Shown here piece by piece: positions 1,378-14,376 of a stretch of DNA of 64,000 nt. The notes beneath the pieces were generated by a model, which was given only the letters and a program-made list of their open reading frames with translations, did no database searches and was not told where the DNA came from. Both the position numbers and the translations under genes were made by a program. Within the stretch, counting starts at the first letter, position 1, and every line of letters begins with the position of its first letter. This stretch comes from Blastococcus haudaquaticus (lineage in GTDB: Bacteria > Actinomycetota > Actinomycetes > Mycobacteriales > Geodermatophilaceae): contig NZ_OCNK01000001.1 in assembly GCF_900230285.1 (NCBI RefSeq), forward strand, positions 186,001 to 250,000. Direction: 5' to 3'.

Positions 1378-1393
1378 GTTACCCATCGGTAAC
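1378..1393. promoter_or_regulatory. Candidate pathway operator upstream of ccr (site 1 of 3)
   Basis: GTTACCCATCGGTAAC is a 6-bp inverted repeat around CATC, 71 nt before the ccr start. Its right arm overlaps TAACAT (1390-1395), a possible -10 box. A related motif occurs upstream of two other genes of the pathway (7791-7806 and 14361-14376). Confidence 0.5.
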
Positions 1394-1464
1394 ATCGCGC
1401 CACCCGCACCGCCGAGCACCGCCCCCCGCAACGCCACCGAGCCGACGAAGACCCGGGAGAACGC

Positions 1465-2796
1465 GTGAACGAGATCAGGGACGCCATCCTCAGCGACCAG
1501 CTGGACGCCGTGGCCGGGCTGGCCGTGCCCGAGTCCTACCGCGCCGTGCTGGTGCGCAAGGACGAGCAGGACATGTTCGAGGGCCTCACCACCAAGGACA
1601 AGGACCCGCGCAAGTCCCTCCACGTGGAGGAGGTCCCGACCCCCGAGCTCGGCCCGGGCGAGGCGATCGTGGCGGTGATGGCGTCGTCGGTGAACTACAA
1701 CACCGTCTGGACGTCGATCTTCGAGCCGGTCTCGACCTTCGGATTCCTCGAGCGGTACGGCCGTGTCTCCGAGCTGACGAAGAAGCACGACCTGCCGTAC
1801 CACGTGGTCGGCTCCGACCTCGCCGGCGTCGTCCTCAAGGTCGGCCCGGGCGTCAACAAGTGGAAGCCCGGCGACGAGGTCGTCGCGCACTGCCTGTCCG
1901 TCGAGCTCGAGGACCCGGCCGGCCACGACGACACGATGATGGACCCGCAGCAGCGGATCTGGGGCTTCGAGACCAACTTCGGCGGCCTCGCCGAGTTGGC
2001 CCTGGTCAAGAGCAACCAGCTGATGCCCAAGCCCGGCCACCTCTCCTGGGAGGAGGCCGCCGCCCCCGGCCTCGTGAACTCCACCGCCTACCGCCAGCTG
2101 GTCAGCCGCAACGGCGCCAACATGAAGCAGGGCGACACCGTGCTCATCTGGGGCGCCTCGGGCGGTCTGGGCTCCTACGCCACCCAGATGGCGCTCAACG
2201 GCGGTGCGATCCCGGTCTGCGTCGTCAGCAGCCCGGAGAAGGCCGAGATCGTCCGCAAGATGGGCGCCGAGCTGGTCATCGACCGCTCCGCCGAGCAGTA
2301 CGCGTTCTGGAAGGACGAGAACACCCAGGACGTCAAGGAGTGGCAGCGCCTGGGCAAGAAGATCCGCGAGCTGACGGGTGGCGAGGACGTCGACATCGTC
2401 TTCGAGCACCCCGGCCGGGAGACCTTCGGCGCCAGCGTCTACGTGGCCAAGAAGGGCGGGACGATCGTCACCTGCGCCTCGACCACCGGCTACATGCACC
2501 AGTACGACAACCGGTACCTGTGGATGAACCTGAAGAAGATCCTCAGCTCCCACTTCGCCAACTACAAGGAGGCGTGGGAGGCCAACCGGCTCATCGACAA
2601 GGGCCTCATCCACCCGACCCTGTCGAAGGTCTACCCGATGGAGGAGGTCGGCCAGGCCGCCCTCGACGTCCACCGCAACGCCCACCAGGGCAAGGTCGGC
2701 GTCCTCACCCTCGCCCCCGAGGAAGGCCTCGGCGTCCGCAACCAGGAGAAGCGCGAGCAGCACCTCGAGGCGATCAACCGCTTCCGCGGGGTCTGA
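1465..2796 (+). CDS. ccr: Crotonyl-CoA carboxylase/reductase
   Basis: NADPH-dependent reductive carboxylation of crotonyl-CoA to ethylmalonyl-CoA, the hallmark enzyme of the ethylmalonyl-CoA pathway and a supplier of polyketide extender units. The 443-residue medium-chain reductase has the expected length. The four residues known to hold CO2 in the Kitasatospora enzyme (Asn81, Phe170, Glu171, His365) are all present here, shifted by two: Asn79, Phe168, Glu169 and His363. This argues for a true carboxylase rather than a plain reductase. The GTG start at 1465 has GGGAGA five bases upstream. A palindromic candidate operator lies 71 nt before the start. Confidence 0.97.
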   Translation: MNEIRDAILSDQLDAVAGLAVPESYRAVLVRKDEQDMFEGLTTKDKDPRKSLHVEEVPTPELGPGEAIVAVMASSVNYNTVWTSIFEPVSTFGFLERYGRVSELTKKHDLPYHVVGSDLAGVVLKVGPGVNKWKPGDEVVAHCLSVELEDPAGHDDTMMDPQQRIWGFETNFGGLAELALVKSNQLMPKPGHLSWEEAAAPGLVNSTAYRQLVSRNGANMKQGDTVLIWGASGGLGSYATQMALNGGAIPVCVVSSPEKAEIVRKMGAELVIDRSAEQYAFWKDENTQDVKEWQRLGKKIRELTGGEDVDIVFEHPGRETFGASVYVAKKGGTIVTCASTTGYMHQYDNRYLWMNLKKILSSHFANYKEAWEANRLIDKGLIHPTLSKVYPMEEVGQAALDVHRNAHQGKVGVLTLAPEEGLGVRNQEKREQHLEAINRFRGV

Positions 2797-2802
2797 CGCC
2801 GC

Positions 2803-2872
2803 ACCCCCGTGCCCGCATCGACCCTGGCTCAGGGGCCGGCCCCGAGCGTGCGAGGGGTGGGGGCACGGGGGT
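2803..2872 (+). terminator. Hairpin after ccr
   Basis: A 12-bp perfect stem (2803-2814 with 2861-2872) encloses a loop that itself contains the palindrome GGGGCCGGCCCC. It starts 6 bp after the ccr stop. There is no T-run, as is usual in very GC-rich actinobacteria. Confidence 0.5.
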
Positions 2873-2943
2873 CCTGGTGCCACCGGCGCCGGATATCTCG
2901 GCGACACGCTGACGAGCGTTTGACCTTCTGCGAGGATGGAGAC

Positions 2944-4212
2944 ATGAGCGACCCGCGCCGCGACCTGCTAGCGCACCACGAGGCCCAGCACTCGTTCGAC
3001 GTGCAACTACGGGGTTACGACCGCAACCAGGTGGCCGAGGCGATCGAGCGGCTCGAGGCCGACTTCCGCATCGCCCTCGCCGACCGCGACGCGGCCGTCA
3101 GCCGCTCCGCGGACCTGGCCGGGCAGCTGTCCGCGCTGCACAACGAGATCGAGTCGCTGCGCCGCAAGGCGGCGTCGGCGTCGGCTCCCACCTTCGAGAA
3201 CATCAGCGAGCGCATCCAGCACATGCTGCAGCTCGCCGAGGAGGAGGCCGGCGAGATCCGCCACGCGGCGGCGCTCGACGCGCAGGCCGTGCGCGAGCAG
3301 ACCGCTGCCGAGGAGCGGGCACTGCTCGAGCGGCACGCCGCGGGTCAGGCCGAGGTGGAGCGGATGCTCGCCGAGGCCCGACAGAACGCCGAGCAGATCA
3401 TGCAGAAGGCGCAGCAGCGCGCCGACGAGCTCGTCGCCATGGCGCAGGAGCGCGTGGCCCGCCTCGACGCCGAGTCCCAGGCACGCCGGGCCAAGGTCGA
3501 GGAGGACTTCGACATCGCCCAGCGCGCCCGCCGCGCGGAGGCGGCGGCGGCGGAGGAGGAGCGCGAGCGCGTCTCCACCCAGGCGGCTCGGCAGCGCATC
3601 GCCGGCGCCGAGCAGCACGCCGCGCAGCTCGTCGCCGAGGCGGAGGCCAAGGCCGAGGCCATCCGCGACGTCCGCGACGAGCTCACCAATCGACTGCTCC
3701 AGGCCCGTCAGCTGCTCAGCAGCCTGCCCGACCTCGGCGACCGCCCGCAGCAGTCCGCGCCCCAGCAGTCCACGAGCCAGCCGTCCGCGCCTCAGCAGTC
3801 GGCACCCCAGCAACAGGCGCCCCAGCAGTCGGCACCCCAGCACTCGGCACCCGCGCCGCAGCAGACGCCGACGAAGGCGGCTCCCGCCGCACAGGGCGCC
3901 ACCGCCACCGGCGCCCAGAACGCCGGACCGGCGTCGAGCGGCACTCCTGCGCAGGCCGCACCGGCCCGCGAGCCCGAGCGCCGTCCGCAGCCCACGCCGC
4001 ACACCGCGTCCGCCACGCCCAGCGGCCCGTCCACGAACCCGCAGACCGCCCCGCGAGGTGAGGGCGAGGCGGCCGCTGCCCGCCAGCCGACGCGTCAGGA
4101 CCCGGTCACCCGCCAGCTGCCCATGCCGCCGCGGCCCGGCGCGACTCCGGCTCCGGTGCAGGGCCCGCCCACCCAGGCCATCGACCAGCCGGTCGGCCAG
4201 GGGCGTTCGTAA
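2944..4212 (+). CDS. DivIVA-like coiled-coil protein with Gln/Pro/Ala-rich tail
   Basis: A 422-residue protein starting at an ATG preceded by GAGGATGGA. Residues about 15-50 (SFDVQLRGYDRNQVAEAIERLE) match the DivIVA N-terminal membrane/pole-binding domain. Residues about 50-260 are predicted coiled coil, rich in Glu, Ala, Gln and Arg. The last ~160 residues are low complexity, with repeated QQSAP/QQ-AP units at 3748-3870. DivIVA-domain proteins act as scaffolds for polar growth and septation in actinobacteria. This one is not the canonical wag31, which lies in the division cluster, so a more specific role is unknown. Confidence 0.8.
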   Translation: MSDPRRDLLAHHEAQHSFDVQLRGYDRNQVAEAIERLEADFRIALADRDAAVSRSADLAGQLSALHNEIESLRRKAASASAPTFENISERIQHMLQLAEEEAGEIRHAAALDAQAVREQTAAEERALLERHAAGQAEVERMLAEARQNAEQIMQKAQQRADELVAMAQERVARLDAESQARRAKVEEDFDIAQRARRAEAAAAEEERERVSTQAARQRIAGAEQHAAQLVAEAEAKAEAIRDVRDELTNRLLQARQLLSSLPDLGDRPQQSAPQQSTSQPSAPQQSAPQQQAPQQSAPQHSAPAPQQTPTKAAPAAQGATATGAQNAGPASSGTPAQAAPAREPERRPQPTPHTASATPSGPSTNPQTAPRGEGEAAAARQPTRQDPVTRQLPMPPRPGATPAPVQGPPTQAIDQPVGQGRS

Positions 4213-4289
4213 TCCCACCCGCTCGACCGACAGCCCGCGCGCCGCGCGACCTCCGGGTCCGCACGGCACGTGGGCTGTTCGTCGTCCTG

Positions 4290-5633
4290 GTGGCGCTGCT
4301 GCTCGCTGCTCCGGCGGCGCCGGCGGCCGGCGCCGCCGAGACGGGGCAGCTGCGGATCGCCCACCTCTCCCCCGACAGCCCGGCGGTCGACGTCGCGCTC
4401 GCACCTCTCCCACCGGGCACGACCGACCCGCTGACCGATCCGGGCGAGGACCTGGCGACGGGGCTGGCCTACGGGACCGTGAGCGACCCGGTCCCGCTCG
4501 CGCCCGGTAGCTACGCGGTGAGCGTGCGCGCGGCCGGTGCCGACCGCACGGTTCCACCGGTGGTCTCCACCCGGATCGACCTGACGTCCGGCGAGGCCCG
4601 CACAGTGACCCTCGGCGGCGCCTTCGCCGACCTGGCCCTGCAGACGCTCACCGACGACCTCTCCGCTCCCCCGGCCGGCTCGGCCCGCGTGCGCGTCGTC
4701 GCAGCGGCCGGGGCGGTGCCCGCGCTGGACGTGGCGGTGCGGGGCGGACCGTCGCTGGTGGCCGACCTGCCCCTGGGCGCGGCCGGCGAGCCGGGGACGG
4801 TGCCCGAGGGGCCGGCCCTGCTCGTCGTCAGCGGCGGAACCGGGCCGGCGACCGAGGTGCCGATCTCCTTCGCGGCGGCCTCGGTCGTGACGCTGCTCGT
4901 CCTCGACTCCCCCGCCGGCGGGCTGCTCGTGCGGCCGGTGGTGGATGCCGCCGCGCCCGCGGTCGTCCCGGTCGGTGGCGTCGAGGCAGGGACGGGACCA
5001 CTGCTCCCCGGCAGCCTGCTGCCCGCGGGGGTCCTCCTCGCCGGGCTCGCGGCGGCCCGCCGGGGCCGCGTGCTGCTCGCCGCCACCGGCGTGGCCGTCG
5101 CCCTCCTCGCCGGGACGCCGGGCACCGCCGGCGCCGTTCCGGTGGCACTCCGCGGCCCCGCCCCACCCGAGGTCGAGGTGGTCGCCGGTGCGCCCGCGCC
5201 CGATCGCCTCGTCGTCCCGTCGGCCGGGGTGGACGCCGCGCTGATCGGGGCCGGGCCCGACGCCGAAGGGGCGCTCGTCCCACCGGCGGACCCGGCGGTC
5301 GCCGGCTGGTACACCGAGGGACCGGCCCCCGGGGAGACCGGCCCGGCGGTGGTCACCGGTCACGTCGACTGGGCCGGGGCGCCGGGCGTCTTCGCCGGGC
5401 TGGCCGCGGTCGACGCGGGCGCGGAGATCCGGGTGGTCCGTGCCGACGGCAGCACGGCGCTGTTCACGGTCACCAGGGTGGAGCGCGCTCCCAAGACGGC
5501 GTTCCCGACCACCGAGGTCTACGGCCCGACGTCGGGGGCCGAGCTGCGGCTGATCACCTGCGGCGGCGTCTTCGACCGCAGTCGTGGCAGCTACGAGGAC
5601 AACGTCGTCGTCTTCGCCCGGGCCGTCGGCTAG
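4290..5633 (+). CDS. DUF4397 protein fused to a class F sortase-like domain; start uncertain
   Basis: Probably an exported, membrane-anchored cell-surface protein. A secretion signal is followed by a DUF4397 domain (LRIAHLSPDSPAVDVAL). Next come hydrophobic stretches at roughly residues 240-285, then a sortase domain with His in TGHVDW, Cys in LITCGG and Arg in RGSYEDN, the class F triad. The GTG at 4290 cuts off the basic n-region of the signal peptide (RTARGLFVV), which is encoded in frame just upstream. No ATG, GTG or TTG exists in frame between 4212 and 4290. An ATC overlapping the previous stop (4212-4214) has AGGGG eight bases before it. The stop interlocks with the next gene in a shared CTAG. 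Confidence 0.8.
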   Translation: MALLLAAPAAPAAGAAETGQLRIAHLSPDSPAVDVALAPLPPGTTDPLTDPGEDLATGLAYGTVSDPVPLAPGSYAVSVRAAGADRTVPPVVSTRIDLTSGEARTVTLGGAFADLALQTLTDDLSAPPAGSARVRVVAAAGAVPALDVAVRGGPSLVADLPLGAAGEPGTVPEGPALLVVSGGTGPATEVPISFAAASVVTLLVLDSPAGGLLVRPVVDAAAPAVVPVGGVEAGTGPLLPGSLLPAGVLLAGLAAARRGRVLLAATGVAVALLAGTPGTAGAVPVALRGPAPPEVEVVAGAPAPDRLVVPSAGVDAALIGAGPDAEGALVPPADPAVAGWYTEGPAPGETGPAVVTGHVDWAGAPGVFAGLAAVDAGAEIRVVRADGSTALFTVTRVERAPKTAFPTTEVYGPTSGAELRLITCGGVFDRSRGSYEDNVVVFARAVG

Positions 5634-5935
5634 CGACGGCGGTCGCGCGCCCGCCAGCAGGTCGTGTGCCAGTGCCGGCGCAGGTCGGCGGCCGACTCGG
5701 TGTCCCAGGGGTCGAGGTCGGAATCGCGGGCGTAGGCGGCCCAGGTCACCACGTGCGGGGTTCCCGGCCGGATCTCCTGGTCGCAGCCGGGGCACCGGTA
5801 GGTCTTGCCCGTCGCCGAACCGGTGACCGGCCGCACCACCCAGTCGCCGTCACCGGCCTGCTCGACGGCGTCGACGCGACGGACGGGCTCCCGGCCCGAA
5901 GGCCTCGAGCCCGCCCGTGGACGGCGTCGGGGCAC
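5630..5935 (-). CDS. Small conserved zinc-binding actinobacterial protein
   Basis: A 101-residue protein with a basic, disordered N-terminus. It has a putative zinc site, CPGCDQEI at residues ~48-55 and HTTCW near residue 90, and ends in basic residues. Orthologues are conserved in actinobacteria (Streptomyces versions share YRCPGCDQEI, PHVV and RRHWHxxCW) and are sometimes labelled ATP/GTP-binding without clear evidence. Function is unknown. It lies directly upstream of nothing on its own strand and is convergent with the sortase gene, sharing CTAG at the stops. Confidence 0.8.
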   Translation of the reverse strand: MPRRRPRAGSRPSGREPVRRVDAVEQAGDGDWVVRPVTGSATGKTYRCPGCDQEIRPGTPHVVTWAAYARDSDLDPWDTESAADLRRHWHTTCWRARDRRR

Positions 5936-5938
5936 GCG

Positions 5939-7720
5939 TCAGCGGCTGGCGTAGTCCCGGAACCCGCGACCGGTCTTGCGGCCCAGGTAGCCGGCGGTCA
6001 CCAGGTGCTCGAGCAGGGGCGCGGGCGCGAACCCCGGCTCGCGGAACTCGGTGTAGAGCTCGCGCTCGATGGCCAGCGACACGTCCAGCCCGACGACGTC
6101 GAGCAGCTCGAAGGGGCCCATCGGGTAGCCGCAGCCGACCTTCATCGCGGCGTCGATGTCGTCGGCGGTCGCGTAGTGCGCCTCGAGCATCTTCACCGCG
6201 TCGTTCAGGTACGGGAAGAGCAGCGCGTTGACGATGAAGCCGGCGCGATCGGTGCAGGACACCGCGTGCTTGCCCAGCTGCGCGCTGACGGCGTGCGCGG
6301 TGGCCGCGACGTCCGGCGCCGTCGAGATGGTGGAGACGACCTCGACGAGCTTCATGACCTGGGCAGGGTTGAAGAAGTGCATCCCGACGACGTCGTCGGG
6401 GCGGCCGCTGGCCTTGGCGCACTCGATGACCGGCAGGCTGGACGTGGTGGTCGCGAGGACGGCGCCGGGCTTGGCGATCTCGCCGAGGTTGGCGAACAGC
6501 GCCTCCTTGACCGACAGCGACTCGACGACCGCCTCGATGATCAGGTCCGAGTCGGCGAGCTCGTCGAGCGACGTCGTCCCGGCGACGCGGGTCAGGATCT
6601 CGGCCTTGGCGCCCTCCTCCAGGCGCCCGCGCACGACCTGCTTGTCCAGGGACTTGGTGAGCGCCGTGGTCACGGCCTCGACCTTCTCGGGGCTGCGGGC
6701 CACGAAGCGGACGTCATAGCCGCCCTTGGCGACGACCTCGATGATGCCGGTCGCCATGGTCCCGGAGCCGATGACGCCCACCGTCCGCACCGGGCGCGCA
6801 CCCTCGGCCGCGCCACCGGCGGCGGGGGTCGCGGCGTCGTCGACGACCTCGGCGGAGCCGGGCTCGGCGTAGGTGTAGAAGCCGCGACCGGACTTACGGC
6901 CGAGCAGGCCGGCGGTCATCATCTGCTTGATCACCGGGCTGGGGGCGTGCAGCCGGTTGCGCGACTGCTTGTACATCGTGTCGAGGATCTCGTAGGCGGT
7001 GTCGATGCCGATGAGGTCCATCAGCGCCAGCGGGCCCATCGGCAGGCCGCACCCCAGCCGCATGGCGGCGTCGATGTCCTCGCGGGTGGCGTAGCGGTTC
7101 TCGTACATGGAGACCGCGTGGTTGAGGTAGCCGAAGAGCAGCGCGTTGGCGATGAAGCCCGCGCGGTCGCCGATGGTGACGTCGACTTTGCCGAGCCGCT
7201 CGGCCAGCGCCTCGACGTCCTCGACGACGGAGGGCTCGGTGACGACCGTCTGCACGACCTCGACCAGCTTCATGACCGGCGCCGGGTTGAAGAAGTGCAT
7301 GCCGATCACCTTGCTCGGCCGGCCGGTGACCACGGAGAGCTCGGTGACCGAGAGGCTCGAGGTGTTGGTCGCCAGGATCGTGTCCGGCGCGCAGATCTTG
7401 TCCAGCCGCGCGAAGACGTCGGCCTTGAGCTCCATGCGCTCGGGCACGGCCTCGATGACCAGTTCGGCGCTCGCCAGGTCCTCCAGCGAGTTGCTGAAGC
7501 GGATCCGCTCGAAGATGGCGTCGCGGTCGGCGGGGTCGAGCTTGCCGCGGCTGACGGCCCGGTCGGTCGACTGCTCCACGTGCCCGCGGCCGCGCGCCAG
7601 CGCCTCGTCGGTGACCTCGACAGCGGTGACCGACAGGCCCGCCCGCGCGAGCACCTCCGCGATGCCGGCACCCATGGTGCCCAGCCCCACGACGCCGACC
7701 TCGTTCAGTTCCCTGGCCAC
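5939..7720 (-). CDS. Tandem-domain 3-hydroxyacyl-CoA (3-hydroxybutyryl-CoA) dehydrogenase
   Basis: Reduces acetoacetyl-CoA to 3-hydroxybutyryl-CoA, or the reverse in beta-oxidation. The 593-residue protein is two complete 3HCDH units in a row. The first has GLGTMGAG at residues 12-18, and the second has GSGTMATG near residue 315. Each is followed by its own C-terminal helical domain (GFIANALLF / GFIVNALLF and MGPLALMDLIG / MGPFELLDVVG). This doubled architecture is known in actinobacteria. GTG at 7720 was chosen for the GGAGGAGA site before it. A longer frame lacks support. A candidate operator lies 70 nt upstream. Confidence 0.93.
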   Translation of the reverse strand: MARELNEVGVVGLGTMGAGIAEVLARAGLSVTAVEVTDEALARGRGHVEQSTDRAVSRGKLDPADRDAIFERIRFSNSLEDLASAELVIEAVPERMELKADVFARLDKICAPDTILATNTSSLSVTELSVVTGRPSKVIGMHFFNPAPVMKLVEVVQTVVTEPSVVEDVEALAERLGKVDVTIGDRAGFIANALLFGYLNHAVSMYENRYATREDIDAAMRLGCGLPMGPLALMDLIGIDTAYEILDTMYKQSRNRLHAPSPVIKQMMTAGLLGRKSGRGFYTYAEPGSAEVVDDAATPAAGGAAEGARPVRTVGVIGSGTMATGIIEVVAKGGYDVRFVARSPEKVEAVTTALTKSLDKQVVRGRLEEGAKAEILTRVAGTTSLDELADSDLIIEAVVESLSVKEALFANLGEIAKPGAVLATTTSSLPVIECAKASGRPDDVVGMHFFNPAQVMKLVEVVSTISTAPDVAATAHAVSAQLGKHAVSCTDRAGFIVNALLFPYLNDAVKMLEAHYATADDIDAAMKVGCGYPMGPFELLDVVGLDVSLAIERELYTEFREPGFAPAPLLEHLVTAGYLGRKTGRGFRDYASR

Positions 7721-7790
7721 GTTGCCATCTCCTCCCACCGCCGGTGATCGCGCGCAGTCTCTCACCCCCCGAGCGCCGCCGCTCCGCGGG

Positions 7791-7806
7791 CCTACCGGTG
7801 GGTAAC
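7791..7806. promoter_or_regulatory. Candidate pathway operator upstream of the hydroxyacyl-CoA dehydrogenase (site 2 of 3)
   Basis: On the minus strand this reads GTTACCCACCGGTAGG, 13 of 16 positions identical to the ccr site. It lies 70 nt before the dehydrogenase start, almost the same distance as at ccr. Confidence 0.45.
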
Positions 7807-7807
7807 T

Positions 7808-8248
7808 TCAGCCGCGGTCCAGGCGCAGGTCCATCCAGGGCAGCCACCGGTCGTCGACCAGCCGCTCCCAGCGCGCGGTCAGGTGGTCGCCGTCCACCCC
7901 GACGCGGAACCAGCTCCGGACACCGTCGCCGTGCAGCAGGAGCACTCCCGGCTCCTCGAGCGTCAGGCGCATGACGCCGGGCTGCTCGGCATCGTCGAAG
8001 GCGTGCATCTGCCAGCCGCCGTCGCCGTGCACGCCGCCGATGACCTCGTGCAGGACGACGCGTTCTCCACCGATGCGCACGTCGACGTCGTGGGCGATCC
8101 AGTGCCCTCCCGGCAGGAGTGCGTAGACATCGGTACCGGCGATGGACGCGGTGGCCTCTCCCGCGTCGTCCAGGACGCTGCCGGACGTCCTCCACCGGCC
8201 CAGGACCGGGGTCAGCGGTTCGAGACGGCTCGCGGGTTCCGTGGGCAT
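7808..8248 (-). CDS. DUF1579-like protein
   Basis: A 146-residue, probably cytosolic beta-rich protein. The LGRWRTSG start, a central GGHWIAHDVDV and the pattern of alternating strands resemble the DUF1579 lipocalin-like family, whose function is not established. It lies 76 bp downstream of nucS on the same strand and 87 bp upstream of the dehydrogenase start. No catalytic motif is evident. Confidence 0.65.
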   Translation of the reverse strand: MPTEPASRLEPLTPVLGRWRTSGSVLDDAGEATASIAGTDVYALLPGGHWIAHDVDVRIGGERVVLHEVIGGVHGDGGWQMHAFDDAEQPGVMRLTLEEPGVLLLHGDGVRSWFRVGVDGDHLTARWERLVDDRWLPWMDLRLDRG

Positions 8249-8324
8249 CGCGGTCCTCTCCTCGGGTGACGAGAGCTACGACGTCCCGGGGAGCTCGCGC
8301 TCATCGGCGGCGGGCCGCCGGTCC

Positions 8325-8996
8325 TCAGAAGAGGCGCTGGGTGGGGTCGTCGGTGCCCTTGAGGACGGCGTAGTCGACGGTGAGGCAGTCGATCCCGCGA
8401 TCCTGAGCGAGCACCCGCGCCTGCGGCTTGATCTCCTGCGCGGCGAAGACGCCCTTGACCGGCGCCAGCAGGGGGTCGCGGTTGAGCAGCTCGAGGTAGC
8501 GGGTGAGCTGCTCGACGCCGTCGATCTCCCCCCGCCGCTTGATCTCCACGGCCACCACGGCACCGGAGGCGTCGCGGCAGAGCAGGTCGACCGGGCCGAT
8601 CGCCGTCGGGTACTCCCGGCGGACCAGCGACCATCCCGCGCCGAAGGTCTCCACGTGCAACGCCAGCAGCCGCTGCAGCTCGGCCTCGACGCCGTCCTTC
8701 TGCAGGCCGGGGTCGACGCCGAGGTCCTGGGAGTGGTCGTGGTCGACGCTCTCGATCGTGATGATCAGCTGCTCGCCGGTCTTGTTGGTGACCGTCCACG
8801 TCCCCGAGCCGTCGACCAGCTCGTCCTTGAGCGTGCAGGGCGGACTCATCCAGTTCAGCGGCTTGTAGGCGCGGTCGTCGGCGTGGATGGACACCGAGCC
8901 GTCGGCCTTCACCAGCAGCAGGCGGGTCGCCATGGGGAGGTGGGCGGTGAGCCGCCCGATGTAATCGACGGAGCAACGGGCGAGGACCAGGCGCAC
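8325..8996 (-). CDS. nucS: Mismatch-specific endonuclease NucS (EndoMS)
   Basis: Cuts both strands at DNA mismatches in the MutS/MutL-independent repair used by many actinobacteria and archaea, loaded by the sliding clamp. It is 223 residues from a GTG at 8996, which gives the family N-terminus [12 protein letters not shown]. The nuclease core is visible as Asp137 (GPVDLL), Glu151 and Lys153 (VEIKRRG). The C-terminus ends in QRLF, the expected clamp-binding tail. It lies near the epimerase and thiolase genes, as in mycobacteria. Confidence 0.96.
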
Positions 8997-9054
8997 GGGC
9001 AGCGACGCTACCGGGCGCGGGAACCCAGCCCGCGCCCCCGTCGTGGGAGGGGGC

Positions 9055-9912
9055 ATGACGATCATGCGGGCGGTCCGGCCGGCGGTGGCGCTCGCGCTGG
9101 CCCTGGGCCTCGCGGCCTGCGCGGAGCGCGATGCCACCGGCGGTCCCGGGGAGTTGCCGGAGTCCTCGGAGGCCGCCGTGGGCGAGGGACTCGTCCTCCG
9201 GGTGGAGCAGACCGGCGGGTTCGTGACCCCCTCGATGCTGGCCGGCCGGCTGCCGATGGTCAGCGTCTACGCCGACGGCCGGGTGATCACCGAGGGGCCG
9301 GTGATCGCCATCCATCCGGGGCCCGCCCTGCCGAACCTGCAGGTGGCCCAGCTGGACCCGGCCGGCGTGCAGGACCTCGTGGACCGCGCCCTCGCCGCCG
9401 GGGTGGACGAGACCACCGACCTCGGCTCACCGCCCGTGGCCGATGCGACGTCGACCCGGTTCACCGTCGTGACCACCGAGGACACCTACGTGCGGGAGGT
9501 CTACGCCCTCTGGGAGACCACGGAGGGCGACGGCCTGACCGACGACCAGGTGGCGGCCCGGGAAGAGCTCTCGGGGCTCCTGGACGCGCTGACCACCCCC
9601 GGTGACGCGGCCACCTCGTCGTTCGAGCCGGAGGCCGTCGCGGCGATCGCCTCGCCGTGGGTCGACCCCGGCGACGGGCTGGTGCAGGCGGAGCAGCCGT
9701 GGCCGGGGCCGGCACTGCCGGGTGAGCCCACCGGCGGGCCGCCGGACGTCACCTGCGTGACCGCCACCGGCGCGCAGGCGCAGGCGGTGCTCGACGCGGC
9801 GGGGGCGGGCAACGCCGCCACCCCGTGGGTGACCGGCGACGGGTCCCGGTGGTCGGTCACCTTCCGCCCGCTGCTGCCGGACGAGACCGGCTGCGCCGAC
9901 CTCGGGGACTAG
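9055..9912 (+). CDS. Putative secreted lipoprotein
   Basis: A 285-residue protein with a short basic start, a hydrophobic segment and a lipobox GLAAC about 20 residues in, followed by an acidic exported domain. No known enzymatic motif was recognised. Two cysteines in the C-terminal part (DVTCVTA and ETGCADL) could form a disulphide. The start could be ATG 9055 or ATG 9064; GGGAGGGGG at 9045-9053 favours the second by spacing. Divergent from nucS. Family unknown. Confidence 0.75.
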
Positions 9913-9923
9913 CCCCGGACAGG

Positions 9924-9963
9924 CGAACGGCCCGGGCCTCCACAGAGAGGACCGGGCCGTTCG
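9924..9963. terminator. Bidirectional hairpin between convergent genes
   Basis: A perfect 12-bp stem (CGAACGGCCCGG, 9924-9935, with 9952-9963) and a 16-nt loop sit between the lipoprotein stop at 9912 and the transporter stop at 9977. It can serve both strands. Confidence 0.75.
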
Positions 9964-9976
9964 TGTGCGGTGCGGA

Positions 9977-11341
9977 CTAGGCGTTGACGGGCTCCGGACG
10001 ACGCAGGTCGGTGTCCACTCCCCCGCGCTCCTCGACCCGCGCGAGCGGGTCGATGGTCGACGTCGACCGGTAACGCTCGACGTCGAGGATGCCCTCGCGC
10101 TTGGCCACGATCGTCGGCACCAGCGCCTGCCCGGCGACGTTCACCGCGGTGCGGCCCATGTCGAGGATCGGGTCGATCGCCAGCAGCAGCCCGACGCCGG
10201 CCAGGGGCAGACCCAGGGTGGACAGCGTGAGGGTCAGCATGACCACCGCGCCGGTGACTCCCGCGGTGGCCGCCGAGCCGATGACGGAGACCAGGGCGAT
10301 GAGCAGGTAGTCGGTGAGGGAGAGGTCCACGCCGAAGAACTGCGCCACGAAGATCGCCGCCAGCGCCGGGTAGATCGCGGCGCAGCCGTCCATCTTCGTC
10401 GTCGCCCCGAGCGGGACGGCGAAGGAGGCATAGGACCGCGGGACACCCAGGTTCTGCTCGGTCACCCGCTCGGTCACCGGCAGCGTGCCGATCGAGGAGC
10501 GGGAGACGAATGCCAGCTGGATGGCCGGCCAGGCACCCGCGAAGTACCGCAGCGGCGAGAGGCCGTGCAGGCGCAGCAGGACCGGGTAGACGACGAACAG
10601 CACGATCGCGAGCCCGGCGTAGACGGCGCCGGCGAACACGCCGAGCGAGCTGAGGGACTCCCAGCCGTAGCTGGCCACGGCGTTGCCGATCAGTCCGACG
10701 GTGCCCAGCGGCGCGAGCAGGATGACCCACCACAGCACCTTCTGGACGATCGCCAGGGCGGCGCGGACGAAGCCGACGAACGGCTCGGCCGCCTCGCCGA
10801 CCTTCAGCGCGGCGATGCCGATGGCGGCCGAGATGACGATGAGCTGGAGGACGTTGAACGACAGGCCGACCGAGCCGTCAGCACCCGCCGACGCCTGCAG
10901 GCCGAAGACGTTGCCGGGCACGATGCCGGTGAGGAAGTCGAACCAGGAGCCGGTGCTCTCCGGGGCGGCCTGAGCGGCGGTGTCGACGGAGCTGTTCCGG
11001 CCCGGCTCGGTGAGCAGGCCCAGTCCGATGCCGATGCCGACCGCGATGAGCGCGGTGATGGCGAACCACAGCAGGGTCTGGCCGGCCAGGCGGGCCGCGT
11101 TGGAGACCTGCTTGAGGTTGGCGATGCTGACGATCACGGCGGTGACGATCAGCGGGGGGACGAGCGTCTTCAGCAGCGTCACGAACGTGCCGCCGATGGT
11201 CTGCAGGGTGCTGGTCAGCCAGTTGGGCGAGCCGTCGGAGACGGTGCCCATCTCACGGGCGACGAAGCCGAGGGCCACGCCCACGACGAGGGCGAGGAGT
11301 ACCTGCGCCGCGAAGGGCACGCGGCGGAGACGAGCGAGCAC
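9977..11341 (-). CDS. Dicarboxylate/amino acid:cation symporter (DAACS family)
   Basis: Integral membrane sodium- or proton-coupled uptake of glutamate, aspartate or C4-dicarboxylates. It has 454 residues with about eight membrane segments plus re-entrant loops. The family hairpin signatures are present: a serine-rich RSSIGTLPVT hairpin and GATTKMDGCAA in the second half, where the usual NMDG reads KMDG. The start is a GTG at 11341 with GAAAGG ten bases upstream. Substrate cannot be fixed from sequence. It is last in a minus-strand run after the mutase and hydratase genes, with a 177-bp gap suggesting its own promoter. Confidence 0.88.
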   Translation of the reverse strand: MLARLRRVPFAAQVLLALVVGVALGFVAREMGTVSDGSPNWLTSTLQTIGGTFVTLLKTLVPPLIVTAVIVSIANLKQVSNAARLAGQTLLWFAITALIAVGIGIGLGLLTEPGRNSSVDTAAQAAPESTGSWFDFLTGIVPGNVFGLQASAGADGSVGLSFNVLQLIVISAAIGIAALKVGEAAEPFVGFVRAALAIVQKVLWWVILLAPLGTVGLIGNAVASYGWESLSSLGVFAGAVYAGLAIVLFVVYPVLLRLHGLSPLRYFAGAWPAIQLAFVSRSSIGTLPVTERVTEQNLGVPRSYASFAVPLGATTKMDGCAAIYPALAAIFVAQFFGVDLSLTDYLLIALVSVIGSAATAGVTGAVVMLTLTLSTLGLPLAGVGLLLAIDPILDMGRTAVNVAGQALVPTIVAKREGILDVERYRSTSTIDPLARVEERGGVDTDLRRPEPVNA

Positions 11342-11518
11342 GGGGATGGAGCCTTTCGGGGATTCGGGAGGGGACGACGAGCACGGCCGGCGTCAACAGC
11401 CGGCGGTCGTCATCCGTCCGAAGTCCAGGGCACGCCGACGCGTGAGCCCCCACAGGTTCTGCACGGACAGGTCAAGGCGCGCAGCGGCGCTGCCATGCCC
11501 GGCTGTGCCCGGACTCAC

Positions 11519-12289
11519 TCAGTCGGTCCAGACCGGGGGCCGCTTGTCCAGGAAGGCGGCCATGCCCTCGCGGGCGCCGTCGAGCTGGCTCGCGGCTGCC
11601 ATGACCTCGACGGCGGTCGTGTAGGCGTCCCGCTCCGGGCGGTCCAGCTGGGCGTACATCGTCTGCTTGCCCCACGCCTTGCTCGCCCGCGAGCCGCGGG
11701 TGGCCCGTCCCATCAGGTCGTCGACCGCCGCGTCCAGCTCGACGTCGGGGACGACGCGGTTCACCAGGCCCCAGTCCAGCGCCGTCGGCGCGTCGATGAC
11801 GTCGCCGGTCAGCGCCAGCTCCATCGCGCGCTTGCGACCCACGTTGCGGGCGATCGCCACCATCGGCGTGTGGCAGAACCAGCCACCCTTGCCGCCCGGT
11901 GCGGCGAACCCGGCCGACTCCGCGGCGACGGCCAGGTCGCAGGACGCCACCAGTTGGCAGCCGGCGGCCGTGGCGAGGGCGTGCACGCGGGCCAGGACGA
12001 CCTGGGGCACGTCCTGGAGGGTCTGCATCAGCTCGGTGCACAGGAGCAGCAGGCTGCGTACCTCGGCCACCGGCTTCCCGGCGACGTCGGCGAAGTCGTG
12101 CCCCGCGCTGAACACCGGGCCCTCGGCGGCCAGCACGATGCCGGTCGCGTCGGTCGAGCCTGCCTCGGTCACCGCGGCCAGCAGCTGCGTCAGGTGCTCA
12201 CGGGAGAGCGCGTTGCGGCGCGCCGCCCGCACCATCGTGATGCGGACGACGTCGCCGTCGCGTTCGACCCGGGGTGCGCCGTCAGCCAT
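11519..12289 (-). CDS. Enoyl-CoA hydratase/isomerase (crotonase) family protein
   Basis: A 256-residue crotonase-fold protein. The oxyanion-hole region (FSAGHDFADV) and the second glycine-rich segment (AAGCQLVASCDLAVAAES) are clear. The usual paired glutamates of true hydratases are not obvious: after the second oxyanion segment the sequence reads GGKGGWFCHTPM. It could therefore be an isomerase or another crotonase activity. It starts 21 bp after the mutase stop, so the two are probably cotranscribed, which suggests acyl-CoA metabolism in the same route. Confidence 0.85.
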   Translation of the reverse strand: MADGAPRVERDGDVVRITMVRAARRNALSREHLTQLLAAVTEAGSTDATGIVLAAEGPVFSAGHDFADVAGKPVAEVRSLLLLCTELMQTLQDVPQVVLARVHALATAAGCQLVASCDLAVAAESAGFAAPGGKGGWFCHTPMVAIARNVGRKRAMELALTGDVIDAPTALDWGLVNRVVPDVELDAAVDDLMGRATRGSRASKAWGKQTMYAQLDRPERDAYTTAVEVMAAASQLDGAREGMAAFLDKRPPVWTD

Positions 12290-12310
12290 GCGACCGACGC
12301 TAGCCGAGGA

Positions 12311-14341
12311 TCAGGCCGGCTCGGGCACCTTCTGCTCGGGATGGGCGGGGAGGTCATTGGCCTCGCGGACGACGTCCACGACCTGGCCCATGATCTCGGT
12401 GAGCCCGAAGTCCTTGGGCGTGAAGACCCGTGCGACGCCCTGCTCGCGGAGCCGGCGCGCGTCGCTGTCGGGGATGATCCCGCCGACGACCACGGGGACG
12501 TCGTCCAGGCCGGCCTCCTTGAGCCCGCGCAGCACGGCCGGCACCACCTGCAGGTGGGAGCCGGACAGCACGGACAGGCCGACGACGTGCACGTCCTCCT
12601 CGACCGCGGCCGAGACGATCTGCGCGGGCGTCAGCCGGATGCCCTGGTAGATCACCTCGAAGCCGGCGTCCCGTGCGCGGACGGCGATCTGCTCCGCGCC
12701 GTTGGAGTGCCCGTCCAGACCGGGCTTGCCCACGAGGAAGCGCAGCCGGCCGCCGAGCTCGTCACCGGTCGCGCGCACCCGCTCGCGGATGTCGACGAGC
12801 GTCTCGTCGGCCTCGCCGCCGCCGGTCGCCGCGGCCACCCCGGTGGGCGCGCGGTACTCGCCGAAGACCTCGCGCAGCACCCCGGCCCACTCCCCTGTCG
12901 TCACGCCGGCGCGGGCGCAGTCGAGGGTGGCGGCCATGAGGTTGACGTCGGAGGCCGCGGCCTCGCGCAGCGCGTCGAGCGCCCTGTCGGCCGCGGCCTG
13001 GTCCCGCTCGGCCCGCCACGTCCGGACCGCTTCCTGCGCCGCGTTCTCCACGGCCGGGTCGACGACCATGATCGCGGTGTCGAGGTCGGCGGTGAGCGGG
13101 TTGGGCTCGGTGGTCTCGAACTTGTTGACGCCGACGACGACGTCCTCGCCGCTCTCGATCCGCCGGCGGCGCTCGGCCAGCGACCCGACCATCGCGCTCT
13201 TCATGTAACCGGACTCCACGGCGGCGACGGCGCCGCCCATCTCCTCGACGCGCGCCATCTCGGCCTTGGCGCCCTGGACGAGCTCCGCGACCTTCTTCTC
13301 GACGACGACGGAGCCGGTGAAGAGGTCCTCGTACTCGAGCAGGTCGGTCTCGTAGGCCAGCACCTGCTGCAGCCGCAGGGACCACTGCTGGTCCCACGGC
13401 CGGGGCAGACCGAGGGCCTCGTTCCAGGCCGGCAGCTGCACGGCGCGGGCGCGGGAGTCCCGGGACAGGGTGACCGCGAGCATCTCCAGCACGATCCGCT
13501 GGACGTTGTTCTCCGGCTGCGCCTCGGTCAGGCCCAGGGAGTTGACCTGGACGCCGTAGCGGAAGCGGCGGTGCTTGGGGTCCTGCACGCCGTAGCGCTC
13601 CGCCGTCAGCTCGTCCCAGAGCTGGGTGAAGGCGCGCATCTTGCACATCTCCTCCACGAAGCGGACGCCCGCGTTCACGAAGAAGGAGATGCGCGCGACG
13701 ACCTCGCCGAACTTCTCCTGCGGCACCTGCCCGGAGTCGCGGACGGAGTCCAGGACGGCGATCGCGGTGCTGATGGCGTAGGCGATCTCCTGCTCCGGCG
13801 TGGCTCCCGCCTCCTGCAGGTGGTAGCTGCAGATGTTGATCGGATTCCACTTCGGCATGGTCGTCACCGTGTAGGCGACCATGTCGGTGATCAGGCGCAT
13901 CGACGGAGCCGGCGGGAAGACGTAGGTCCCCCGCGACAGGTACTCCTTGATGATGTCGTTCTGCGTGGTCCCGGCCAGCTTGCTGACGTCGTGGCCGTGC
14001 TCCTCGGCGACCGCCTGGTAGAGCGCCAGCAGCCACATCGCGGTCGCGTTGATCGTCATCGACGTGTTCATCTCGTCGAGCGGGATGCCGTCGAAGAGGG
14101 CGCGCATGTCACCGATGTGCGTGACGGGGACGCCTACCTTGCCGACCTCACCGACGGCGAGCTCGTCGTCGGGGTCGTAGCCGGTCTGCGTGGGCAGGTC
14201 GAAGGCGACCGAGAGACCGGTCTGCCCCTTGGCGAGGTTCCGCCGGTACAGGGCGTTGGACTCGGCCGGCGACGAGTGGCCGGCATAGGTGCGCATGACC
14301 CAGGGACGGTCGCGCTCCTTCGGCGCTGAAGGGAACGGCAT
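12311..14341 (-). CDS. ecm: Ethylmalonyl-CoA mutase (MeaA-type B12 mutase)
   Basis: Adenosylcobalamin-dependent rearrangement of ethylmalonyl-CoA to methylsuccinyl-CoA. The 676-residue single chain carries a mutase barrel (FDLPTQTGYDPDDE, MNTSMTINATA, NPINICSYHLQEAGA). It ends in a B12-binding domain with LDGHSNG (the DxHxxG cobalt-ligand motif), GLSVLSGSH and VVGGIIPD. Length and sequence follow Streptomyces MeaA rather than the two-subunit methylmalonyl-CoA mutase. The ATG at 14341 gives the family-like N-terminus. A TACACT -10-like box lies 8 nt before it and a candidate operator just beyond. Substrate choice over methylmalonyl-CoA is inferred from the family. Confidence 0.93.
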   Translation of the reverse strand: MPFPSAPKERDRPWVMRTYAGHSSPAESNALYRRNLAKGQTGLSVAFDLPTQTGYDPDDELAVGEVGKVGVPVTHIGDMRALFDGIPLDEMNTSMTINATAMWLLALYQAVAEEHGHDVSKLAGTTQNDIIKEYLSRGTYVFPPAPSMRLITDMVAYTVTTMPKWNPINICSYHLQEAGATPEQEIAYAISTAIAVLDSVRDSGQVPQEKFGEVVARISFFVNAGVRFVEEMCKMRAFTQLWDELTAERYGVQDPKHRRFRYGVQVNSLGLTEAQPENNVQRIVLEMLAVTLSRDSRARAVQLPAWNEALGLPRPWDQQWSLRLQQVLAYETDLLEYEDLFTGSVVVEKKVAELVQGAKAEMARVEEMGGAVAAVESGYMKSAMVGSLAERRRRIESGEDVVVGVNKFETTEPNPLTADLDTAIMVVDPAVENAAQEAVRTWRAERDQAAADRALDALREAAASDVNLMAATLDCARAGVTTGEWAGVLREVFGEYRAPTGVAAATGGGEADETLVDIRERVRATGDELGGRLRFLVGKPGLDGHSNGAEQIAVRARDAGFEVIYQGIRLTPAQIVSAAVEEDVHVVGLSVLSGSHLQVVPAVLRGLKEAGLDDVPVVVGGIIPDSDARRLREQGVARVFTPKDFGLTEIMGQVVDVVREANDLPAHPEQKVPEPA

Positions 14342-14360
14342 ACCGGCGGAGTGTAGGGCG

Positions 14361-14376
14361 GTTACTCGCCGGTAGC
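14361..14376. promoter_or_regulatory. Candidate pathway operator upstream of ecm (site 3 of 3)
   Basis: GTTACTCGCCGGTAGC shares 12 of 16 positions with the ccr site. It lies just upstream of a TACACT -10-like box (14350-14355, minus strand), a position fitting repression of ecm. Confidence 0.42.

Follow-up and report, generated by a model that had tools for sequence, protein, structure and literature searches.

A 16-bp palindrome, GTTACYSRYSRGTAAC (core TAC-N6-GTA), stands before three genes in a 64,000-nucleotide stretch of the Blastococcus haudaquaticus genome (NZ_OCNK01000001.1, positions 186,001 to 250,000), hereafter the window. These genes encode crotonyl-CoA carboxylase/reductase (ccr), a 3-hydroxyacyl-CoA dehydrogenase and an acyl-CoA mutase. 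The three sites are genuine, not chance occurrences, and represent one shared operator type. They probably serve as operators in an acyl-CoA catabolism regulon that extends across the genome, where an orthologue of the Mycobacterium tuberculosis (Mtb) TetR-type protein FasR would bind them, repress the genes and be released by acyl-CoA. The observation of a shared motif made in an initial annotation of the window was confirmed and is stronger than that annotation held.

Palindromic sites before acyl-CoA catabolism genes

The window corresponds to C2:186001–250000 of the 4.5 Mb B. haudaquaticus genome (coded G000). Before ccr (1465..2796, + strand; NCBIfam TIGR01751, 606.8 bits vs a cut-off of 378.55), the near-perfect palindrome GTTACCCATCGGTAAC occupied positions 1378–1393 (+), 71 nt 5′ of the GTG start. 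GTTACCCACCGGTAGG (7791–7806, −) lay 70 nt 5′ of the 3-hydroxyacyl-CoA dehydrogenase gene (5939..7720, −; 593 aa), assuming a GTG start at 7720, and GTTACTCGCCGGTAGC (14361–14376, +; GCTACCGGCGAGTAAC on the strand of the gene) lay 19 nt 5′ of the ATG of the mutase gene (12311..14341, −; 676 aa). All three were exact in the sequence; the coordinates and distances initially annotated, as well as the 13/16 and 12/16 matches of the second and third sites to the first, were correct on recount. The sites also had the size proposed for a TetR-type inverted repeat (14–16 bp) and a position near promoters. When the three were combined into a degenerate pattern, it matched nothing else in the window within two mismatches. 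Window shuffles gave an expected 0.32 matches, and 0/100 shuffles reached the observed four strand-matches. The initial observation that no other full match was seen held within the window and failed genome-wide, where TTACYSRYSRGTAR occurred exactly at 12 places.

We searched the whole genome with GTTACYNNNCGGTARS and TTACYSRYSRGTAR, using gene calls and starts made in this analysis. Gene identities were taken from NCBIfam and Pfam, often below the NCBIfam curated cut-offs; that of FadE5 rests on solved FadE5 structures (E = 2e-253), and we assigned EtfD, mcl, mce, purE and fadD presumptively, by eye from the sequence. The strict 16-mer, allowing at most one mismatch, occurred at 8 places vs 0 for its control. 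TTACYSRYSRGTAR was exact on at least one strand at the 12 places and within one mismatch at 27 places; as it gave 46 strand-matches vs 24 for the backward control, this looser pattern alone carries much noise. Three of the 12 exact places were the window sites, six were at other beta-oxidation, electron-transfer flavoprotein (ETF) or lipid-transport genes, and three were elsewhere. Two of the nine exact places at lipid or acyl-CoA genes belonged to fadE5.

Sites were located at etfB-etfA (C2:151386), an EtfD-like iron–sulphur protein gene (C2:847317), a FadE5-type acyl-CoA dehydrogenase gene (C2:884036 and 884059, a pair of sites 23 bp apart), a thiolase gene, fadA (C5:816954), and a long-chain acyl-CoA ligase gene, fadD (C3:147252). 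This list also included an acyl-CoA dehydrogenase gene beside purE (C2:401893), the ABC ATPase gene of an mce/YrbE operon (C2:592733), a gene for a CitE-family protein resembling malyl-CoA lyase (mcl-like; C6:822897) and additional acyl-CoA dehydrogenase genes (C6:824491 and C5:538419). At C2:401893, C2:592733, C5:816954 and C2:1151328, the called open reading frame was too long and its first few codons covered the site, which was taken as lying at the true start. Of the five fadA or ABC ATPase genes examined in relatives, three have a called start 3′ of the site, one has it 5′ of the site and in one it coincides with the last base of the site. This content describes a regulon for acyl-CoA catabolism, the ethylmalonyl-CoA pathway included, and should replace the reading of a repressor dedicated to that pathway.

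The sites were conserved across the family. In 57 Geodermatophilaceae genomes, the strict GTTACYSRYSRGTAAC 16-mer with at most one mismatch gave 361 matches vs 11 for the backward control, and every genome held at least one. Around ccr, 20 relatives were compared, picked for contig span and spread from 52 with a ccr match, with no representative of genera g6, g9 and g11. Conservation in orthologous promoters, which had been suggested as a check, was found: a site scoring at least 13/16 was kept before ccr in 20/20, before the mutase gene in 19/20 and before the dehydrogenase gene in 15/20. The ccr site scored at least 14/16 in all 20 relatives, and the mutase site stood 16–19 nt 5′ of the start in 19/20. 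Flanks drifted and the inner six bases varied among the allowed letters, but none of the 54 sites scoring at least 13/16 (at ccr, the dehydrogenase gene and the mutase gene) departed from TAC or GTA, an invariance that is partly selection because the sites were chosen by score. The nearest matches to ccr in a collection of named genomes came from Blastococcus. Among named ccr loci, a site of at least 13/16 was present in 76/80 vs 0/240 control stretches drawn from those loci. In 73/80, TAC-N6-GTA was intact, and the site-bearing loci included Amycolatopsis, Saccharothrix, Mumia and Aeromicrobium.

Outside the ccr region, 20 further site loci were taken from four relatives and 16 of them carried a homologue of a gene in the B. 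haudaquaticus regulon (fadE5, EtfD-like, fadA, ABC ATPase, mutase, acyl-CoA dehydrogenase or etfB). Sites were also retained in distant genomes, upstream of etf genes and of acyl-CoA dehydrogenase genes. In the mycobacterium-like genome G094, this included fadE5, the EtfD-like gene, etfB, the acyl-CoA dehydrogenase gene beside purE and citrate synthase, plus seven places at other genes.

A FasR orthologue and the site in its promoter

Among 39 TetR_N matches in the B. haudaquaticus genome, the likely regulator of the palindrome is the TetR protein encoded at C2:323831–324469 (L039), outside the window, which by sequence comparison is an orthologue of Mtb FasR. Its best PDB match was Mtb FasR (6o6p, E = 1e-56; 49% identity over 199 residues), and the stretch VSKPVLYQHF was identical in both proteins. 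In the reverse direction, FasR of G094 matched L039 best among the 39 TetR loci (49.5%). A DUF3107 (PF11305) gene adjoined fasR, and a similar small protein was seen by eye beside fasR at L155, L162, L179 and L181; going by Mtb gene order, this neighbour presumably holds the position of Rv3208A. Acyl-CoA tunnel residues were identical or conservatively replaced (Mtb to B. haudaquaticus: L98 to L, L106 to M, F123 to Y, V163 to I and L185 to L, the last of which we take to be a tunnel residue). fasR was present in 56/57 Geodermatophilaceae genomes. In the tree, FasR-like proteins of Geodermatophilaceae and distant families grouped with Mtb FasR at modest support (82/86), as did FasR of G094. Proteins of the L038 type, the next best relatives of FasR, were separate (99/95), and FdmR (Rv0238) sat on a very long branch, its placement unsure.

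The fasR promoter itself contained a site, GGAACCCGCCGGTAAC (C2:323803–323818; L039:1398–1413), 12 nt 5′ of the ATG, whose right half and next two bases form a −10-like TAACAT. We compared the 30 best-scoring of 56 fasR loci (own included), all from Geodermatophilaceae, with 30 L038-like loci spread over the phylum. Twenty-six of the 30 fasR loci scored at least 13/16 and four scored 11 or 12; the 26 sites all stood 11–12 nt 5′ of the ATG with TANNNT over the right half. By its sequence the fasR site is a target site in weakened but conserved form, and perhaps a weak autoregulatory element. Among 29 fasR loci from other families, 11, all from family f5 (probably Streptomyces), shared GTTACYSAAAAGTACG, in which TAC-N6-GTA is kept around another centre. 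Finally, 9/10 readable distant FasR-like genes had a site of at least 13/16 lying 2–126 nt upstream, all with TAC-N6-GTA; they came from 11 genomes, four of which were picked for a site seen beside fasR and seven for a FasR-like gene plus sites, with L241 excluded because its reading frame was wrong. The initial expectation of a TetR gene carrying the site was therefore borne out by fasR, with the qualifications that this gene lies outside the window and that its site has an altered left half in Geodermatophilaceae.

The occurrence of FasR and of the site were associated across the phylum. A FasR-like gene (E ≤ 1e-30) was found in 70/296 genomes. At least two sites occurred in 65/70 genomes with such a gene vs 12/226 without, and at least three sites in 53/70 vs 2/226, all counts being uncorrected for shared ancestry. 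With the same caveat, at least two sites occurred in 22/24 genomes with FasR and no L038, and in 2/29 with L038 and no FasR.

The initial remark that no described regulator with this site was known proved too strong, since TAC-N6-GTA has been reported before fas and desA3 (PMC3388012) and occurs in the Mtb FasR crystal operator (PMC7382501). This 25-bp operator contains TACCCGTACGTA (10/12 to the core TACYSRYSRGTA) and AACTCGCCAGTA (11/12), and 0.19% of shuffled crystal oligos reached 11/12. Mtb FasR (Rv3208; PDB 6o6n, 6o6o and 6o6p) is thus alike in protein sequence, DUF3107 neighbour and tunnel residues, and its operator contains both TAC-N6-GTA and AACTCGCCAGTA, the second of which has the AAC left half seen in many Geodermatophilaceae fasR-promoter sites. 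It is described as binding three inverted repeats, as being released by acyl-CoA of at least C16 (PMC7382501) and as essential in M. smegmatis. It differs in that it activates type I fatty acid synthase (FAS-I), whereas in B. haudaquaticus the sites are found at genes of beta-oxidation and the ethylmalonyl-CoA pathway, on or beside −10 boxes. The palindrome of McGuire et al. 2012 has the same core and forms closely spaced clusters before fatty-acid genes; it was linked to genes up on palmitate, but its description concerns mycobacterial desA3, Rv3230c and fas and names no regulator (PMC3388012). Streptomyces coelicolor FasR (SCO2386) has the same name and likewise acts in fatty-acid synthesis, but as a novel regulator class activating the fabDHPF operon it is set apart by its description. 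FadR of Bacillus and Thermus, and PsrA, are TetR-type, acyl-CoA-responsive repressors of beta-oxidation with different operators.

Direction of control and competing explanations

At ccr, the right half of the operator overlaps a −10-like TAACAT (1390–1395, +), with a possible −35, TCGACC (1367–1372, +), at a 17-bp spacer. The mutase site lies just upstream of a −10-like TACACT (14350..14355, −), 8 nt 5′ of the ATG, and the mutase transcript would be short-leadered or leaderless. TANNNT was found over the right half of the ccr site in 20/20 relatives and within 14 nt downstream of the mutase site in the 19/19 relatives keeping it; because TA belongs to the palindrome, the counts at ccr and fasR test one base only. 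An operator on or beside the −10 usually blocks polymerase. On this arrangement, repression was upheld as the simplest reading, and the initial statement that the sites overlap or abut −10 boxes applied to ccr and the mutase gene, not to the dehydrogenase gene. A repressor released by long-chain acyl-CoA appears likeliest because the operators lie on or by the −10 and the tunnel residues are kept or conservatively replaced; we infer the binding, the repressive sign and the ligand from sequence.

In the mechanism we propose, a dimer of the FasR-orthologous protein would sit on the palindrome. When fatty acids are absent, it would lie on or beside the −10 of ccr, the mutase gene, fasR and other targets and block RNA polymerase. 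Accumulating long-chain acyl-CoA would enter the FasR tunnel and take the protein off DNA. Release would jointly induce beta-oxidation (fadD, fadE, fadA and the 3-hydroxyacyl-CoA dehydrogenase gene), and would also turn on electron transfer (etfBA and EtfD-like) and acetyl-CoA assimilation (ccr, mutase and mcl-like lyase). The weaker site in the fasR promoter may tune fasR itself.

Several results weigh against control by FasR in this form. For Mtb FasR, the published role is activation of fas-acpS rather than repression (PMC7382501). The B. haudaquaticus protein scored 246.7 bits on the NCBIfam FasR equivalog NF053731, below its cut-off of 330. The left half of the fasR site lacked TAC in 26/26 Geodermatophilaceae loci (AAC or GAC instead), making this site weaker than the target sites, and only 6 of 29 fasR loci from other families scored at least 13/16 upstream. 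The association of FasR with the site may include an effect of shared ancestry. No −10 overlapping the site was seen at the dehydrogenase promoter, whose mode of control may differ for that reason. In the loci of the 20 relatives, randomly drawn 220-nt stretches reached 13/16 in 167/4000 cases, true sites included. Three of the 12 exact places were off obvious lipid genes: C2:1151328 (an aldo/keto reductase gene, by eye), C2:1198112 (a gene for an AP-endonuclease-like protein) and about C5:572297–572298 (L077:12298–12313), a one-mismatch 16-mer 36 nt 3′ of the stop codon of the TetR gene L054. Outside Geodermatophilaceae, a site stood before only 9/27 ccr genes (30 genomes searched), and in f5 no site was found before ccr in 11/11 genomes; membership of ccr in the regulon depends on lineage.

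It is unlikely that another TetR protein, FdmR-type or one of the other B. haudaquaticus TetR proteins, binds the operators and that fasR is merely one target. FdmR is a published repressor of fadE5 and other degradation genes in mycobacteria and responds to long-chain acyl-CoA (PMC12403877, PMC9262360), G094 carries a perfect site before fadE5, and the relative weakness of the fasR-promoter site would fit such a scheme. However, FdmR is only 29% identical to the FasR orthologue, and at E ≤ 1e-6 it matched no other of the 39 TetR loci. No FdmR orthologue was found in the 57 Geodermatophilaceae genomes: the best match was the FasR locus in 54 (26–31% identity) and another locus in the remaining three (at most 30%). 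L038 (C6:583096), present in 75/296 phylum genomes at E ≤ 1e-30, was rejected, as it had no site near the B. haudaquaticus copy, an upstream site of at least 13/16 in 0/30 loci, and did not track the site in genomes lacking FasR (2/29, as above). L226 was rejected for want of a nearby site, and the site at L054 is 3′ of the gene, not 5′ of its start. FasR and FdmR may nonetheless share sites in G094, since the palindrome is also present in the promoters of its fadE5 and etf genes.

We also think it improbable that FasR binds these sites as an activator, as it does in mycobacteria, or as a dual regulator. The published activation of fas-acpS (PMC7382501) and the dehydrogenase site, which is on no visible −10, are in keeping with such a role, but in 20/20 ccr promoters and in all 19 mutase promoters that keep the site, a −10-like hexamer lies partly within the operator or next to it.

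Repression by the FasR orthologue also accounts for the sites better than the pathway-dedicated repressor of the initial annotation, which is now very hard to credit. The window sites do precede ccr, a mutase gene and a 3-hydroxyacyl-CoA dehydrogenase gene, and the mcl-like lyase gene has one too. That reading was rejected on regulon content, as sites also stand at general beta-oxidation, ETF and lipid genes (etfBA, EtfD-like, fadE5, fadA, fadD and mce/YrbE), distant genomes keep them at etf and acyl-CoA dehydrogenase genes, and 18/27 ccr genes outside Geodermatophilaceae are without one. Chance palindromes or a non-regulatory repeat, to which the matches away from lipid genes and the noise of the looser pattern might point, are next to impossible given the strict-pattern excess (361 vs 11), conservation amid drifting flanks and the contrast between ccr loci and control stretches (76/80 vs 0/240).

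Other features of the site-bearing loci and implications

The products of the two further window genes were characterised by domain content. The dehydrogenase (5939–7720) contained Pfam 3HCDH_N and 3HCDH in two stretches each and scored above the cut-off of the NCBIfam 3-hydroxybutyryl-CoA dehydrogenase model. It is a tandem duplication whose two 3HCDH copies are 46–50% identical, and the same was seen in the family relatives examined. The mutase belongs to the methylmalonyl-CoA mutase family with a fused B12 domain (Pfam MM_CoA_mutase and B12-binding). It scored below the methylmalonyl-CoA mutase equivalog (562.6 bits vs a cut-off of 876), and its closest solved structures were methylmalonyl-CoA mutases. 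Its size and context suggest that it may be of the ethylmalonyl-CoA mutase/MeaA type.

Doubled sites (L071:4037–4073, L256, L184 and L185) were a feature of fadE5, with a start-to-start distance of 23 bp in B. haudaquaticus and G049 and 25 bp in G094, whose EtfD-like gene also had a doubled site (25 bp). This doubling at fadE5 and the EtfD-like gene suggests two dimers on one promoter. The G094 citrate synthase site lay near the gene start (L195:1571–1586). Further sites stood 5′ of aldehyde-dehydrogenase-like genes (by eye) in B. haudaquaticus (C9:96871, L086), a same-genus relative (L246:1788–1803) and f5 (L207:1584–1599). Two others (C5:579211 and C5:580132, L078) flanked a methyltransferase-like gene adjoining a glycosyltransferase-like gene, again by eye. 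The site at C2:1198112 (L074:3113–3126) lay between the AP_endonuc_2 (xylose-isomerase-like) gene and a divergent secreted-protein gene, with no clear lipid link, an arrangement kept in a relative (L259:1848–1863). From the site at C5:572297, the next called gene was some 850 nt further on. In two f5 genomes and G248, the palindrome (perfect or with at most one mismatch) lay 170–360 nt 5′ of DUF6230 (PF19741) genes, at L204:1569–1584, L215:1575–1590 and L200:1528–1586 (doubled), the gene being identified by Pfam at L204 and L200 and by eye at L215; a lipid role for DUF6230 is possible.

Literature searches recognised no published account of this regulon or of FasR in beta-oxidation, although we do not claim that none is in print. 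For Geodermatophilaceae and their relatives, the analysis provides a concrete candidate regulator of beta-oxidation and the ethylmalonyl-CoA pathway, together with a list of sites. We give even chances to a broader view, in which, throughout the phylum Actinomycetota, FasR would be an ancient repressor of acyl-CoA catabolism that also regulates itself, and its activation of mycobacterial FAS-I a later change of role. Several lineages would have wired in the ethylmalonyl-CoA pathway, so that assimilation of acetyl-CoA keeps pace with its release from fat. FasR, known as an activator of FAS-I, may descend from a repressor of fat breakdown.

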